Source of the DNA: a virus
IMG/VR virus record: IMGVR_UViG_3300037189_000613
Coordinates: 1 to 22,488 of that record
Length of the DNA stretch: 22,488 bases
Reading direction: 5' to 3' (one strand)
The position numbers and the translations under genes were made by a program. The first letter of the stretch is position 1. Each line of letters opens with the position of its first letter. Under the pieces are notes generated by a model. That model made no database searches and was not told where the DNA came from. It saw only the letters and a list, made by a program, of their open reading frames with translations. Shown piece after piece: positions 2 to 22,488 of the stretch.

Positions 2-313
2 ATCTGCGTATCGTCTCGCGGCATGGGTTCGCTGAAGATGAACAAAGAAGGCATCAACGAAGTACAGGATGATTTCAGATTGGCAACTGCGGCAGACATT
101 GTTGCAGATCCGTCAGCTCCAGGTGCTTTCGTAAACGGAATTATGGAATCTGTTGATTGGATCTATGACACAAAGGCAGGTTGGAAAGCAGTCGACCTTG
201 CCGAGCAGACCAAGAAGCAAATCGAAAGAGCCGTTTCCTCTCGCTCACTTGAAGAGAGAAAGCTACAGATTTTTGAGAATTACTTAAACAAACTTTCAAA
301 AATTACGTTTTAA
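2..313 (+). CDS. 21: Prohead core protease gp21, C-terminal part (5' truncated by window)
   Basis: The reading frame is open from the first bases, so the gene starts before the window. The visible residues begin with ICVSSRGMGSL, which resembles the active-site serine region of T4-type prohead proteases (SSRG-G). The protease is an assembly enzyme of the capsid interior. It cleaves scaffold, capsid and internal proteins after (I/L)-x-E and then degrades itself. Identity is supported by position: genes 22 and 23 follow directly, as in T4. The catalytic histidine region lies outside the window. Confidence is high for the family and limited only by truncation. Confidence 0.85.
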   Translation: MCVSSRGMGSLKMNKEGINEVQDDFRLATAADIVADPSAPGAFVNGIMESVDWIYDTKAGWKAVDLAEQTKKQIERAVSSRSLEERKLQIFENYLNKLSKITF

Positions 314-319: not shown

Positions 320-352
320 TATTAAAATTATCTACTTTAAAGGAGTATAATA

Positions 353-1672
353 ATGTCAGAGAAGGAAACTAACAGTGTAGATAACACTGAACTAGATATC
401 GAACAGATCGATGAAGCGTATGATAAAATTATCGATTCTAAAAAATATCCGGGTTTAAAGATTCATCAAAGTAGTACAACTGGAGCAGTTAAATTAACAC
501 ATCCAGACCATGCCGATATGAAATTAAATTATAGTCGCGCACGCGATAGATATAGGCATCCAGTTCATGGTGAATTTTGGCACGATAAATTATGGGGTAT
601 TGCATCCAAATATCATAAACATGGTCCTTCACTTGGAAACCCAAATGTAGTAGCCGAACAGATCGATGAAGGTTCGGCTGCTGATACACTACACCCTGGT
701 GCTGGCTCAGGTGGTGGAGATACCAAGGCTGAGACCCTTGCTACTTTCACTTCACTTCTAGCACAGCTTGGTAAGGAAGATCTTTCAAACCTATTCAACG
801 ATGTGCAGGCACAATTTGGCGCTAACAAGGCACCAGGTGCAGTGGACAATTCAGCTAAGAATCGCTCTACTGTAGATGCGAAGCCTTCAGCTGCACAAGG
901 CACAGGCGCTTGGAAGGAAGACATCGACGACATGTTCGGCGGTGACGAACTAACAGAAGACTTCCGTGAAAAGGCAAGCATTGTTTTTGAAGCAGCTGTC
1001 AATACACGTATCACATTAGAAGAAACACGTCTTCAGGAAGAATTCGAAGCTGTTCTAGAATCTCTAGAAGAAGAGTATGAAACAAAGCTTCAAGAAGAAG
1101 CATCTAAGGTATTCGAAGATGTTTCAGCAAAGCTAGACCAGTATCTCGACTATGTTGTAGAAAACTGGATGGAAGAAAATCAGCTCGCAGTTGAAAGCAC
1201 ATTACGTGCAGACATTGCAGAAAACTTCATTCAGGGTCTACAAGGTCTATTTTCAGAGCACTATATTCGTGTTCCAGACGAACAGATCGATCTAGTAGCA
1301 GAAATGAAGGCAGAACTTGACGAACTCAAGGAAAAGCTAAACGAAACAATCGACACTAAGCTAGAACTAGAAGGTGTTATTGAAGAAGCTACTAAAGAAG
1401 CTACACTAGAAGAAGTTTCCGAAGGTCTTGCAGTAACACAGGCTGAAAAGCTTCGTACACTGTCAGAAGGTATCGAATATACTGATGCCGATTCATATCG
1501 TCGTAAGCTAGAAATCGTTAAGGAAAACTATTTCAATAAGAAATCAGCTTCAACAGGTTCAGGTTTTATTACTGAAGAAATTGATGGCGATGACGGCGAA
1601 GAAAAAGCCGACAGATATACTGCTCCAGGAATGGACATGTATATGAACGCAATTAAGAAATCAGTGAAATAA
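353..1672 (+). CDS. 22: Prohead core scaffold protein gp22 with an N-terminal in-frame insert
   Basis: This is the internal scaffold around which the prohead shell assembles; gp21 later cuts it into small peptides. The protein has 439 residues, against about 270 in T4. Residues about 180-395 are strongly acidic and helical or coiled-coil in character (many Glu, Leu and Lys), as expected for a core protein. A Gly/Ala-rich linker surrounds residues 107-125. The gene lies between 21 and 23, with ribosome site AAAGGAG just upstream. Residues 22-106 differ from the rest: they are rich in His, Lys and Arg, and use mainly AAA for Lys and TTA for Leu where the rest uses AAG and CTA/CTT. This segment is bounded by a 17-bp perfect direct repeat encoding EQIDE. 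Assignment to gp22 rests on position, composition and the C-terminal half. Confidence 0.85.
   Translation: MSEKETNSVDNTELDIEQIDEAYDKIIDSKKYPGLKIHQSSTTGAVKLTHPDHADMKLNYSRARDRYRHPVHGEFWHDKLWGIASKYHKHGPSLGNPNVVAEQIDEGSAADTLHPGAGSGGGDTKAETLATFTSLLAQLGKEDLSNLFNDVQAQFGANKAPGAVDNSAKNRSTVDAKPSAAQGTGAWKEDIDDMFGGDELTEDFREKASIVFEAAVNTRITLEETRLQEEFEAVLESLEEEYETKLQEEASKVFEDVSAKLDQYLDYVVENWMEENQLAVESTLRADIAENFIQGLQGLFSEHYIRVPDEQIDLVAEMKAELDELKEKLNETIDTKLELEGVIEEATKEATLEEVSEGLAVTQAEKLRTLSEGIEYTDADSYRRKLEIVKENYFNKKSASTGSGFITEEIDGDDGEEKADRYTAPGMDMYMNAIKKSVK
400..416 (+). repeat. Left copy of 17-bp direct repeat in gene 22
   Basis: The sequence CGAACAGATCGATGAAG occurs here and again at 655-671. The offset is exactly 255 bp (85 codons), so the reading frame is kept. 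It encodes E-Q-I-D-E, whose I-D-E fits the (I/L)-x-E rule of T4 prohead proteases. The first 13 bases recur once more at 1279-1291 within the same gene. Confidence 0.9.
655..671 (+). repeat. Right copy of 17-bp direct repeat in gene 22
   Basis: This is a perfect copy of 400-416 in the same frame. It ends the differently coded 85-codon segment. After it, codon choice returns to the AAG/CTA style of gene 23. Confidence 0.9.
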
Positions 1673-1726: not shown

Positions 1727-3097
1727 ATGTCATATCTAGACGAATCAATTCAGAATAAGTGGAAGCCAATCCTCGAGCACGAAGATCTTCCAACAATCGG
1801 CGACAGCCACAAGCGTGCTGTAACTGCACAGATCCTAGAAAACACAGAAAACGCAATTCGCGAATCTCGTGCAACTTCTATGAGCGGTACAGGTCTACTT
1901 TCAGAAGCACTTCCAACCAACAACACTTCACCAAACGCAAACATTGATAACTTCGATCCAGTGCTTATCTCACTAGTTCGTCGTGCAATGCCAAACCTAA
2001 TTGCGTATGATATCTGCGGTGTTCAGCCAATGACAGGTCCAACAGGCCTTATCTTCGCAATGCGTGCACGTTATGATACACAGGGAGGTACAGAAACATT
2101 CTACAACGAAGTTAACACCGGTCGTTCAGCTCGTGGTGGTGCAAACGCTTCTAACTCAGACGCTGGTTATTCCAGTGGTGCGACATCTGTTGGTGGTGCT
2201 AATACCAACGTAGGTACTACACCATCTGCTAACTCAAACGCATCAAACAGTCTTTATAACTTTGCTGGTGGTATGCAGACTTCACTAGCTGAAAAGCTCG
2301 GCACAGACTCAACATCAATCTTCCCAGAAATGGCTTTCTCAATCGAGAAGGTTTCTGTAACTGCTAAGTCACGTGCTCTAAAGGCTGAATACTCACTAGA
2401 ACTTGCACAGGATCTAAAGGCAATTCACGGCCTAGACGCTGAAACAGAACTTTCAAACATTCTATCAGCAGAAATTCTTGCAGAAATCAACCGTGAAGTT
2501 ATTCGTACAATCGTTGTAAGCGCTGTTAAGGGTGCTGCAGAAGGTACAACAACAACTGGTCTATTCGATCTTGACACAGACTCAAATGGCCGTTGGTCAG
2601 TTGAAAAGTTCAAGGGTCTTATGTTCCAGGTAGAGCGTGAAGCTAACGCGATCGCAAAGGGCACCAGACGTGGTAAGGGTAACGTAATCATTTGTTCATC
2701 CGACGTTGCTTCAGCACTTCAGATGGCAGGTGTTCTTGATTACGCACCAGCTCTAAACAGCAACAACCTAAATGTTGATGACACAGGCAACACATTTGCT
2801 GGTGTTCTTAACGGCCGTCTTCGCGTGTACATTGATCCATATGCAGGCAGCAACTACATGGTTGTTGGTTACAAGGGTTCAAGCGCATTCGACGCTGGTC
2901 TATTCTACTGCCCATATGTTCCACTACAGATGGTTCGTGCAGTAGATCCAAGCACATTCCAACCAAAGATTGGCTTCAAGACCCGCTACGGAATGGTTGC
3001 AAATCCATTCGCAGAAGGTACAACCGCTGGTGAAGGTCGTCTTGTTGAAGATAGCAACCAATATTATCGTCGTGTTATCATCAGCAACCTTATGTAA
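1727..3097 (+). CDS. 23: Major capsid protein gp23
   Basis: This protein forms the hexamers of the T4-type head shell. Residues about 80-110 (LVRRAMPNLIAYDICGVQPM and following) match the best conserved part of T4 gp23, where MVRRAIPNLIAFDICGVQPM is found. The length is 456 residues, against 521 in T4. A prohead protease site is visible at L58-S59-E60|A61, so about 60 N-terminal residues should be removed on maturation, as in T4 (after residue 65). Codon choice is very uniform (CGT, AAG, CTA/CTT, GCA), which fits a highly expressed gene. It has its own late promoter upstream and a strong terminator downstream, so it can form a single-gene late transcript. Confidence 0.97.
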   Translation: MSYLDESIQNKWKPILEHEDLPTIGDSHKRAVTAQILENTENAIRESRATSMSGTGLLSEALPTNNTSPNANIDNFDPVLISLVRRAMPNLIAYDICGVQPMTGPTGLIFAMRARYDTQGGTETFYNEVNTGRSARGGANASNSDAGYSSGATSVGGANTNVGTTPSANSNASNSLYNFAGGMQTSLAEKLGTDSTSIFPEMAFSIEKVSVTAKSRALKAEYSLELAQDLKAIHGLDAETELSNILSAEILAEINREVIRTIVVSAVKGAAEGTTTTGLFDLDTDSNGRWSVEKFKGLMFQVEREANAIAKGTRRGKGNVIICSSDVASALQMAGVLDYAPALNSNNLNVDDTGNTFAGVLNGRLRVYIDPYAGSNYMVVGYKGSSAFDAGLFYCPYVPLQMVRAVDPSTFQPKIGFKTRYGMVANPFAEGTTAGEGRLVEDSNQYYRRVIISNLM

Positions 3098-7926: not shown

Positions 7927-9642
7927 ATGATTCTATTTAAAAAACTACGATATCAGAATCTACTATCTACAGGTAATCAGTTTACTGAACTTGTTTTTAC
8001 TAAATCTAAGTCGACACTGGTAGTAGGACAAAACGGTGCGGGTAAGTCAACGTTTATCGAGGCGTTGACTTTTGCTCTGTATGGTAAACCCTTTCGAAAT
8101 ATTAACAAGCCACAGTTGCTTAACTCTATTACACAAAAGAATCTATTAGTTGAACTAGAGTTTTCTATTGGTAAGAAAGAGTATATGATTCGTCGAGGCA
8201 TTAAGCCTAACGTATTTGAAATTATAGTCAACGGGCAGCTACTAGATCAGAACGCAGACGCACGAGAATATCAGGAACATCTAGAGAAGAACATTCTTAA
8301 ACTAAACTTTAAGTCGTTTAGTCAGATTGTTGTACTAGGTTCGGCAAACTATGTTCCGTTTATGCAGTTACCTGCATCTGAACGTCGCAAGGTTGTAGAA
8401 GATCTTTTGGACATACAGATCTTCTCCGTAATGAACAGCATCCTAAAAGATAAGATCGCAAATAACCGGACCGCAGTAACTGAAATAGATTACAGTATCA
8501 ACTTATGTGAACAGAAGATCGAAATGCACACTAAGCATATCGATACACTGAAAGCAAATAACGATGATCTAATCGTACAGAAACAACAGAAGATTAAAGA
8601 ACATCAAGAAGGATTAGATAGTCTATCTGTTGATACTGATTTACTTTTAGAAAAAGTGGAGATATTAAATGAAGAAGTCTGTGATGAAACCAGGGTCTTG
8701 GGTCGTAAGACTAAACTTGTTCAGATGGAATCTACAATTGAAGATAAGATACGCAAACTTAAAAAAGAAGTGGCGTTCTATCACGATCATGATAACTGCC
8801 CCACATGTAAGCAGGGCATTGACCATGAATTTAAGACCGAAACTATCTCTAAGCGCGAAGCAAAATCCGGCGAACTAACAGAAGCACTTACTAAGCTAGA
8901 AACAGAGATTACTACAACAGAAAGTCGTATCGAAGAGATTAATAAACTCAACGAGCAGATCTCTAGCCTAAATACTAAGATTAGTGAAAACAATCAGCAG
9001 ATTAAGTTCTACAATAGATACATTAAAGATCTACGTGAAGAAATTACTAACCTGCAAGATCAGGCTTCTAAGATTGATACTAACTCTGAAGATACCGTGA
9101 AATATGAAGAAGAGCTAAATAAGCATAACGCACGTAAACAAGAACTGATTAAAGAAAAGTCTGTACTAGATATTGCTGGACAATTACTAAAAGATACAGG
9201 TATTAAGACTAAGATTATTCGACAGTATGTACCTGTTATGAACAAATTGATTAATAAGTATCTATCAGCATTGGACTTTTTTGTAGACTTTCAATTGGAT
9301 GAATCATTTAATGAAACAATCAAATCAAGATTCCGGGACGACTTTTCATATGCTTCTTTCTCCGAGGGAGAAAAGATGCGCATTGATCTTGCTCTTATGT
9401 TTACCTGGCGTGCTATTGCTAAGCTACGTAATAGCGCTTCCACTAATCTTCTTATCATGGACGAGGTCTTCGATTCGTCGCTTGACGCAACTGGTACAGA
9501 AGAGTTCTTAAAGATACTAGAGAGCTTGACTTCTGATTCGAATACGTTTATTATTAGTCATAAAGGCGATAGTTTGTTCGATCACTTCCACAGCGTAATC
9601 AAGTTCGAGAAGCATGCTAATTTCTCACGTATTACTACCTAA
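7927..9642 (+). CDS. 46: Recombination endonuclease subunit gp46 (Rad50/SMC-like ATPase)
   Basis: gp46 is the ATPase partner of gp47 in DNA end resection. The protein has 571 residues (T4: 560). Features in order are Walker A GQNGAGKS at 34-41, a long coiled coil from about 170 to 400 interrupted by the zinc hook CPTC at 291-294, the ABC signature FSEGE at about 478-482, Walker B LLIMDE with D512/E513, and the H-loop ISHKGD. All Rad50-type elements are intact. The 3' end overlaps the convergent minus-strand endonuclease gene by 18 bp. Confidence 0.96.
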   Translation: MILFKKLRYQNLLSTGNQFTELVFTKSKSTLVVGQNGAGKSTFIEALTFALYGKPFRNINKPQLLNSITQKNLLVELEFSIGKKEYMIRRGIKPNVFEIIVNGQLLDQNADAREYQEHLEKNILKLNFKSFSQIVVLGSANYVPFMQLPASERRKVVEDLLDIQIFSVMNSILKDKIANNRTAVTEIDYSINLCEQKIEMHTKHIDTLKANNDDLIVQKQQKIKEHQEGLDSLSVDTDLLLEKVEILNEEVCDETRVLGRKTKLVQMESTIEDKIRKLKKEVAFYHDHDNCPTCKQGIDHEFKTETISKREAKSGELTEALTKLETEITTTESRIEEINKLNEQISSLNTKISENNQQIKFYNRYIKDLREEITNLQDQASKIDTNSEDTVKYEEELNKHNARKQELIKEKSVLDIAGQLLKDTGIKTKIIRQYVPVMNKLINKYLSALDFFVDFQLDESFNETIKSRFRDDFSYASFSEGEKMRIDLALMFTWRAIAKLRNSASTNLLIMDEVFDSSLDATGTEEFLKILESLTSDSNTFIISHKGDSLFDHFHSVIKFEKHANFSRITT

Positions 9643-10230
9643 TGAATTAGTTTTTGTTATCTTTGGTTCATTTGGATTGGTCTTTTTAAGGCCTTTATTC
9701 CAACCTACAGAAACACCTTTTTTGCCCTTATTCCAAGCAACCCGCCCTTTCATTTTTTCTATGGTTTCAGCTGTATGTTTATAGCCTTTTGTTGACGGCA
9801 TTTGTTTACCATTAGCCATTTTATTTTTTTCATCTTGGCTTTTTGCTAATTTTCTTTCTTCTGACCATTTTTCTTTTTTGGGTTTTCGCATTTTTATTAA
9901 AGTTTCAGGTTTGTGTTTATAGCCTATTTTTGGTGTTGGCGGCGCTCCAATAGCAATGTTCAACCAATCTTCTCTGGTTTTTACTTTGAGTTTAGTTAGT
10001 ACTTTTTGTTCCCATAATTGACATTGTTCTCTTGTATCAAATATTTTTCGTATTTGTACATCAAAAGATTCTTTACCATGTTCTTTTATGAGTTGTTTTA
10101 CTTTTTTTGATGAGGTAAAATACGTATTCCATAGATCATTAGGATGGCATCCTGTTTTCCAACGGGCTCCATAATAATGTTGATTTGTTATCCTATTATA
10201 GATATAGTAGGTAAAATAAACAGTGTACAT
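9625..10230 (-). CDS. GIY-YIG-like homing endonuclease with NUMOD3-type repeats
   Basis: This is the only gene on the minus strand. The chosen start at 10230 gives 201 residues and has a perfect GGAGG ribosome site 5 bases upstream. An upstream ATG at 10323 would run into the deformylase gene and is less likely. The N-terminus reads YYIYNRITNQHYYGARW, a GIY-YIG-type core with the usual Tyr pairs and Arg; a candidate catalytic Glu lies in LWEQKVL. Downstream, GYKHKPETLIKM and GYKHTAETIEKMKG are NUMOD3-type DNA-binding repeats, followed by two WNKG motifs. This is the domain order of free-standing phage homing endonucleases. It sits between genes 46 and def and has its own late promoter. Such genes spread by cutting phage lacking the insert. 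Confidence 0.8.
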   Translation of the reverse strand: MYTVYFTYYIYNRITNQHYYGARWKTGCHPNDLWNTYFTSSKKVKQLIKEHGKESFDVQIRKIFDTREQCQLWEQKVLTKLKVKTREDWLNIAIGAPPTPKIGYKHKPETLIKMRKPKKEKWSEERKLAKSQDEKNKMANGKQMPSTKGYKHTAETIEKMKGRVAWNKGKKGVSVGWNKGLKKTNPNEPKITKTNSLGSNT

Positions 10231-10252
10231 TATATCCTCCATGTAGTATAGT
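10224..10252 (+). promoter_or_regulatory. Possible sigma70-type promoter for def-queE-dexA
   Basis: TGTACA (10224-10229) and TATAGT (10247-10252) are 17 bp apart, 38 bp before the deformylase start. A second pair, TTGATT (10180-10185) and TATAGT (10203-10208), is also 17 bp apart. A + strand promoter is needed here because the preceding gene reads the other way. Both -35 boxes match the consensus at only 4 of 6 bases. Confidence 0.35.
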
Positions 10253-10253
10253 G

Positions 10254-10261
10254 TATTTATA
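10254..10261 (-). promoter_or_regulatory. T4-type late promoter of the homing endonuclease gene
   Basis: Read on the minus strand this is an exact TATAAATA, 23 bp before the ATG at 10230. The predicted leader is short and contains the GGAGG site. The mobile gene therefore appears to be expressed late, independently of its neighbours. Confidence 0.82.
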
Positions 10262-10289
10262 GAAAACAAGTTTTTAGTAGGATCGCAGC

Positions 10290-10805
10290 ATGATTCTTGA
10301 TTTAATTCCAGCAAATAGTCCAATTCTTAAACAGGAAATGGAACGTTTTGATTTTTCTAATCCGCCAGTAAATCCCCTAGATCTAGTTACGGATCTAGCC
10401 GAAACAATGCTACATCATAATGGTATTGGACTAGCAGCAAATCAATGTGGTCTTCCATACCGTGTATTTGTTATGAATGCAGATGAATTAATTCCTTGTT
10501 TTAATCCTATTATAGTACATTATGATCCTGATACTATTGTACTAGAGGAAGGGTGTCTGTCTAATCCTAATCTGTTTGTCAAGATTAAGCGCCCTCGTAC
10601 TATCAAGGTCCGTTATACGGAACCAGACGGAAATACTCTTACTCGTGTTTTTGATGGTATGACAGCAAGAATCTTTCAGCATGAATTATCTCATCTTAAC
10701 GGGGAGAATTATATCCGTCTCGCTTCTTCGTATCATAGAGAACAAGCACGCAGTCAACAGAAGAAAGCTAATCGACAAAATAAGGAACTACATTATGCCT
10801 ATTAA
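10290..10805 (+). CDS. def: Peptide deformylase
   Basis: This enzyme removes the formyl group from the initiator Met of new proteins and is common in marine T4-like phages. The protein has 171 residues. All three family motifs are present: G-I-G-L-A-A-N-Q (45-52), E-G-C-L-S-N-P (87-93, metal ligand Cys89) and H-E-L-S-H (131-135, metal ligands His131 and His135, catalytic Glu132). The third motif is usually HELDH; Ser replaces Asp, but the HExxH core is intact. A ribosome site AGGA precedes the ATG. Its 3' end overlaps queE by 11 bp, so it is the first gene of an operon with queE, dexA and the phosphoribosyltransferase. Confidence 0.95.
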   Translation: MILDLIPANSPILKQEMERFDFSNPPVNPLDLVTDLAETMLHHNGIGLAANQCGLPYRVFVMNADELIPCFNPIIVHYDPDTIVLEEGCLSNPNLFVKIKRPRTIKVRYTEPDGNTLTRVFDGMTARIFQHELSHLNGENYIRLASSYHREQARSQQKKANRQNKELHYAY

Positions 10806-21870: not shown

Positions 21871-22488
21871 ATGCAGACTTTCAAAGATTTCATCTCAGAA
21901 GCATTAGATCCACACTCTAAGACATATCATGCTTTTGACATTGATGAAACTTTGTTTGCACATGACCACGATAAACTTAAAGTGCATTTAAAAGATAAGA
22001 AGACTGGACAGCGTGTAGGTTCTTTAAATAACCAAGAGTTTAATACACACGAGTTAAAACCAGAACATGAATATGATTTTAGCGAGTTTAAGTCTTCTAA
22101 GACTTTTCAACAATCAGCAAAACCTATTCGTAAAATGCTTGCGAAGATGAAAGCTATTCATAAGAATAATAAGAATGTTGAAATGGTCACTGCTCGTCAA
22201 GATTTCGACGATAAAGATGCGTTTGGCAAACATTTTAAAAAGTATGGTGTTGATATTAATCAAGTTCACGTCCGCCGTGCTGGTAACGTAGATCCTGTTG
22301 GACCTCCGGGACCTAATAAAGCAAAAGTTATTTCTGATCAGATTAAAAAGAATGGGTATAAAAAAGTCCATTTATATGACGATTCGCAGTCTAATCTAGA
22401 CCATTTTCTCGCATTGAAGAAAGCACATCCAGACGTTGAGTTCCATGCTCACTTAGTTCATCACGACCCTGATACAGGTAGTGTCAAA
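21871..22488 (+). CDS. HAD-superfamily hydrolase with a capsid-targeting-like N-terminus (3' truncated)
   Basis: The frame opens 1 base after the regA stop and runs off the window (206 residues visible). HAD motifs are FDIDETLF (D23 and D25, motif I), MVTAR (105-109, motif II) and LYDDSQSN (D170 and D171, motif IV), so it is probably a phosphatase. The first residues, MQTFKDFISEA, closely resemble the capsid-targeting sequence of T4 internal head proteins (MKTYQEFIAEA). They contain I8-S9-E10|A11, a fit to the gp21 cleavage rule. It may therefore be packed in the head and injected with DNA. The substrate is unknown. Confidence 0.78.
   Translation, partial: MQTFKDFISEALDPHSKTYHAFDIDETLFAHDHDKLKVHLKDKKTGQRVGSLNNQEFNTHELKPEHEYDFSEFKSSKTFQQSAKPIRKMLAKMKAIHKNNKNVEMVTARQDFDDKDAFGKHFKKYGVDINQVHVRRAGNVDPVGPPGPNKAKVISDQIKKNGYKKVHLYDDSQSNLDHFLALKKAHPDVEFHAHLVHHDPDTGSVK

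Follow-up and report, generated by a model that had tools for sequence, protein, structure and literature searches.

T4-type phages are abundant in water. Among the internal head proteins of T4 are one that inhibits restriction and an enzyme that modifies the RNA polymerase of the host, which makes proteins carried in the head important at the moment when infection begins. The internal proteins IPI and IPII bind DNA. IPI, IPII and IPIII are small and basic (approximately 8, 10 and 20 kDa), enter the prohead core, are released by the protease gp21 at L/I-x-E and vary fast between phages (PMC9026906, PMC3012670). In T4, gp21 cuts after L/I-x-E, and the first of its substrates to be shown was the scaffold protein gp22, cut at a Glu-Ala bond (PMC9026906). 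Core proteins are cut to pieces, most of which leave the head, and some of the gp22 fragments made by gp21, such as gp22*, are kept in the mature head (PMC9026906). Alt, another head cargo, is trimmed by gp21 at both ends (PMC9026906). Internal proteins remain in the head and are then ejected (PMC9026906, PMC3012670).

We analysed a stretch of 22,488 nucleotides (the window), a fragment of a T4-like water phage that starts inside gene 21, has the gene order 21-22-23 and finds its best phage matches in Kyanoviridae. Its gp22 is identified as a T4-type scaffold protein by the core domain (Pfam T4_CASP, E=6e-67, residues 188-433; PHROG 237, E=5e-73) and by its location between genes 21 and 23 (Table 1). 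At residues 58-61, the N-terminal part of gp23 holds a candidate gp21 site, LSE↓A. L001, a second record (58.6 kb) of this phage type, shows 10 single-base differences from the window over 22,488 positions and none in gene 22. The two records share an identical first base inside gene 21, approximately 400 bp upstream of the segment described below, perhaps because assembly broke off where strains differ. Further along the window, a GIY-YIG homing endonuclease gene (9625-10323, minus strand; Pfam SegE_GIY-YIG; PHROG 314, E=1e-26) lies between gp46 and a deformylase-like gene and uses AAA in 34 of its 37 Lys codons.

Gene 22 contains a perfect 17-bp direct repeat, CGAACAGATCGATGAAG, whose copies are spaced 255 nt apart; it is the longest exact direct repeat of the whole window. 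A 17-nt repeat was reached in 0 of 500 codon shuffles of gp22 and in 8 of 500 shuffles that preserved the protein. The two edges of the enclosed segment matched each other better than the 5′ edge matched any of 363 other positions in the gene. Both edges encode EQIDE and read QIDE↓A and QIDE↓G. Throughout the segment, the gp22 frame is the only open one among six, and the two other forward frames are full of stops. The original prediction of an 85-codon in-frame insert with a perfect 17-bp repeat, and with EQIDE at both edges, agrees with these coordinates and repeat statistics. A third, imperfect copy further downstream in gene 22 is probably due to chance.

Table 1. Features of the head-gene region of the window and of gp22 genes with extended leaders in other loci. 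↓ marks the point of predicted cutting.
Feature	Record	Positions	Strand	Basis or remark
gp21 prohead protease, C-terminal part	Window	2..313	+	PHROG 207 head maturation protease, E=2.8e-24; gene cut by window start
Ribosome-binding-like site of gene 22, AGGAG	Window	341..345	+	Sequence
Gene 22, T4-type scaffold (prohead core) protein, 439 aa	Window	353..1672	+	Pfam T4_CASP, PHROG 237
Short acidic native leader of gp22, residues 1-21, ending IEQIDE	Window	353..415	+	Alignment with empty relatives
Repeat copy 1 (17 bp), encoding EQIDE; predicted gp21 site IDE↓A after residue 21	Window	400..416	+	
Inserted 85-codon unit, gp22 residues 22-106, basic, His-rich	Window	416..670	+	Absent from 12 relatives; composition
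Repeat copy 2 (17 bp), encoding EQIDE; predicted gp21 site IDE↓G after residue 106	Window	655..671	+	
Conserved block GSAADTLHPG, after the site in relatives	Window	671..700	+	Alignment
Third, imperfect repeat copy (88%), EQIDL	Window	1279..1295	+	Most relatives read EKID there
Gene 23, major head protein	Window	1727..3097	+	PHROG 138, E=1e-170
gp22	L131	1976-3511		Long Lys/Arg/His-rich segment in leader slot
gp22	L138	2192-3577		His-rich segment between QLDE↓N and MVDE↓S
gp22	L130	1517-2773		75-codon unit within its own, different 17-bp exact repeat
gp22	L089	2701-3987		Lys/Glu-rich low-complexity block; KMKKMKKMKKM tandem units
gp22	L087	2827-4002		Lys/Glu-rich low-complexity block in leader

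We compared the gene with its close relatives, 12 IMG/VR loci with a readable gp22 start (L003-L013 and L015) whose best segments are 63-90% identical to the window. The inserted unit was absent from all 12. Each carries one short acidic leader that ends in a site such as IDE, LDE, IEE, IQE or LEE; the next residue is A, G or V, and the conserved block, typically AADTL(K/H)PG, comes after it. By alignment, the site in the second repeat copy (IDE↓G, residue 106) is the counterpart of this single site. The nearest relative, L003, is 87.7% identical in nucleotide sequence before the segment and 86.8% after it and is colinear across the empty site; the gap between the aligned parts is approximately 300 nt in the window versus approximately 30 nt in L003. 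L001 carries a segment identical to that of the window. Because the relatives are empty, L003 is colinear and L001 is filled, a gain of the segment since the divergence from L003 is the most likely history, and one far more likely than its loss from every other lineage. The gp22 alignment that had been proposed as a check thus returned an absent segment and a single retained (I/L)xE site in the relatives, and at the level of aligned sequence this empty site shows that acquisition by insertion, as originally claimed, is real.

The segment (85 aa, 9.8 kDa) has a pI of 9.2 and a net charge of +3, versus a pI of 4.2 and a net charge of −48 for gp22 without it. It is rich in Trp, Tyr and His (2 Trp and 8 His), and has one Glu ahead of its tail. 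These values confirm the earlier description of a basic, His-rich segment unlike the acidic core. The reported codon contrast with the rest of the gene was likewise reproduced: AAA encodes Lys in 8 of 9 insert codons versus 5 of 25 in the remainder of gene 22, and TTA encodes Leu in 4 of 5 versus 2 of 31, where CTA and CTT predominate. Measured against gp22 and its structural neighbours, the codon style of the insert was matched in extremity by none of 2,000 simulations; measured against the replication and metabolism genes of the phage, it was unremarkable (P = 0.11). We therefore dropped codon use as proof of foreign origin, as the style matches other genes of the same phage. Such codon use is consistent with a sequence that has yet to adapt to the high expression of the gene around it.

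A homology search of the insert alone, also proposed at the outset, found nothing above chance by tblastn to E=10 against phages and plasmids, with two peptide-pattern sets each in viral_contigs and genome_contigs, in PDB sequences, Pfam, PHROGs, NCBIfam and PADLOC, or elsewhere in the L001 record and 1.8 Mb of related loci. Its match to PHROG 11991 reached E=0.077 over 28 residues. Origin by local duplication was rejected, since nothing but the repeats has a match at another place in the phage. Neither the insert (pLDDT 54) nor whole gp22 (pLDDT 47) was predicted with a confident fold, and both models were too weak for a fold search. The searches gave neither a donor nor a homolog, and codon use of this kind is ordinary for this phage, so the foreign origin proposed for the segment is not established.

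Both edges of the insert carry IDE, and in relatives the site is conserved as (I/L)xE with A, G or V as the next residue. Ahead of its tail, the insert contains no L/I-x-E. We rejected this absence as a sign of selection, because low Glu content alone leads to the same result (shuffle mean 0.12 internal sites). gp22 as a whole holds 28 looser [LIFVM]xE sites. L/I-x-E is short and often occurs in acidic proteins, so that cutting at the two edges is a prediction. Being cut free would not in itself place the peptide in the virion, because T4 scaffold fragments mostly leave the head (PMC9026906).

Other proteins of the phage start with capsid-targeting-like sequences (MQTFKDFISEA, MKSFKNYIAE, MKTLKQFMSE and MKNFKSWLAE). 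Because these separate proteins carry such starts, head cargo is probably part of the biology of the phage. gp22 residues 1-21 (MSEKETNSVDNTELDIEQIDE) are unlike this MxxFKxFxxE type. The first of the listed proteins is encoded in the window at 21871-22488 (plus strand); MQTFKDFISEA resembles the capsid-targeting sequence of T4 internal proteins and includes an ISE↓A site. This protein also has a phosphatase-like motif, FDIDETLFAHD, and matches PHROG 415 (polynucleotide kinase, E=1e-8), so that its product is a candidate head-borne, ejected enzyme. The other starts lie in L001 (records L047 and L048) at 30713 (MKSFKNYIAET), 57239 (MKTLKQFMSEI) and 57406 (MKNFKSWLAET).

The same place in gp22 is reused by unrelated long segments in other phages, an observation that is new here. 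We surveyed 134 distinct gp22 sequences with a start, drawn from five scans. The conserved block was present in 55 of the 134, with a median of 21 aa of leader ahead of it, and both the length and the sequence of the leader vary widely. Leaders longer than 80 aa were found in L131 (183), L138 (116), the window type (107), L089 (107), L130 (90) and L221 (86). The extra segments of L131, L138 and L130 span 70-147 aa, lie ahead of the conserved block and have (I/L)xE at their 5′ edge. Two of these loci have empty relatives: L141 for L138 (86.7% amino acid identity; 88-90% nucleotide identity beside the segment) and L134 for L130 (81% amino acid identity). No pairwise similarity was detectable among the segments of the window, L130, L131, L138 and L221. 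Searches of phage records returned no homologs of the L131, L138, L130 and L221 segments, and in viral_contigs the L138 segment matched only L138 itself.

These segments differ in character. The L130 segment is approximately neutral (pI 6.1), L221 has a charged block at the slot, and long gp22 leaders are not all of one kind because L089 and L087 hold Lys/Glu-rich low-complexity blocks. Judging by L130 and L089, cargo in the slot need not be basic. Edge repeats were significant in the window and in L130 (24 of 27 positions when mismatches are allowed) and not above chance in L138 and L131, so a rule that such inserts have repeats was discarded. Repeats also occur where there is no cargo: in a distant lineage, the leader of L288 (gp22 start 2252) is without cargo and holds a 20-nt exact repeat, encoding GDQAVIR, 153 nt apart. 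In L052 (Pelagibacter phage HTVC008M), a small Lys-rich hypothetical gene (965-1315) sits between genes 21 and 22, where the slot would be, as a gene in its own right. The presence of unrelated segments at a shared slot suggests that a disposable scaffold can carry passenger peptides into the head.

Considering these data together, we assign a probability of about one half to the following reading, which extends the sequence comparisons by analogy with T4. The leader N-terminal to the (I/L)xE site and the AADTL(K/H)PG block would be a tolerant slot into which an 85-codon segment was recently inserted in frame, duplicating the sequence of the site. The insertion may have arisen by illegitimate recombination or template switching at short homology, and only in-frame products that kept the protease site beside the conserved block would have survived; this is the simplest account, with an order of events that we infer. 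As a stretch of gp22, which is abundant, the segment would enter the prohead core during head assembly, and gp21 would then cut at residues 21 and 106 to free a basic peptide of approximately 9.8 kDa. This peptide would stay with the DNA and be ejected alongside it into the cell. The comparisons document the insertion, its fit to the frame, the conservation of the site and the recurrence at the slot; the later steps, from cleavage through retention in the head to ejection and a possible effect on the host cell, are inferred from T4.

The segment could instead be a functionless passenger, inserted by short homology into a little-constrained leader and degraded or expelled with the scaffold after maturation. 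The wide variation of gp22 leaders, the departure of most T4 scaffold fragments from the head (PMC9026906) and the lack of a homolog or a confident fold all fit this explanation. We nevertheless consider it unlikely, because 85 codons stay open in the one frame that is needed while the other two forward frames do not, the Trp-, Tyr- and His-rich composition is unlike random drift, and 255 useless bases should be costly in a gene whose product is made hundreds of times for each head. The recurrence of comparable long segments at this slot also counts against a functionless passenger; it fits a cargo peptide and strengthens the plausible reading as head cargo. A role within the scaffold before cleavage, through contact with the portal, shell, membrane or internal proteins or through a change in head size, appears less probable still. 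The T4 gp22 core does organize the prohead and bind internal proteins (PMC9026906), and long charged leaders occur in L089 and L087 too. However, close relatives with near-identical gp22, gp21 and gp23 manage without the segment, and protease-type sites at both edges would be needless for a purely structural part.

Two further explanations concern how the DNA came to be there. A small mobile element that generates a 17-bp target duplication would account for the direct repeat at both ends, the window does encode a homing endonuclease, and L130 also has a 17-bp repeat. The repeat could equally be produced by recombination at the site, and we found neither inverted ends nor a second copy in the 58.6-kb record or the collections. 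The L130 segment shares no sequence with that of the window, its repeat differs, and the repeats of L138 and L131 are not above chance; a mobile element is thus highly improbable. We regard an assembly artefact that joined unrelated DNA into gene 22 as scarcely credible. The segment does lie close to the record end, and the window and L001 start at the same base, but the gp21, gp22 and gp23 flanks are colinear with L003 on both sides, two records with 10 single-base differences agree in the insert, and the frame is kept across both joints.

If the tolerant-slot account with a gp21-freed peptide is true, the scaffold slot would be a second, overlooked loading route for head proteins, parallel to the capsid-targeting sequence, and would flag orphan peptides as candidates for host takeover or counter-defence. 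More tentatively, and with somewhat more doubt than assurance, T4-type gp22 leaders may form a general slot in which unrelated, fast-changing peptides sit between duplicated sites and are released as effectors that pass from head to host. The empty and filled pairs L003/window, L141/L138 and L134/L130 make the slot idea directly testable.

Compared with known systems, the leaders of L131, L138 and L130 share with the window the slot ahead of the conserved block and, for L138 and L130, empty relatives; they differ in lacking similarity to the window segment and in that the repeat is significant in L130 only. The gp22 fragments of T4 derive from native acidic scaffold, whereas the segment described here is inserted and basic. 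Two-ended trimming of cargo by gp21, as for Alt, is predicted for the segment, but Alt is a large enzyme encoded by a separate gene and is not part of gp22. The segment has the size and charge of IPI and IPII, and, at 9.8 kDa and pI 9.2, it would match the T4 internal proteins in size, charge and orphan character. Unlike them, it is embedded in the scaffold, internal to gene 22, and would need two cuts. It falls outside the internal protein family, having neither its own gene nor a capsid-targeting sequence at its N terminus; if our inference holds, it would function like T4-type internal head cargo.
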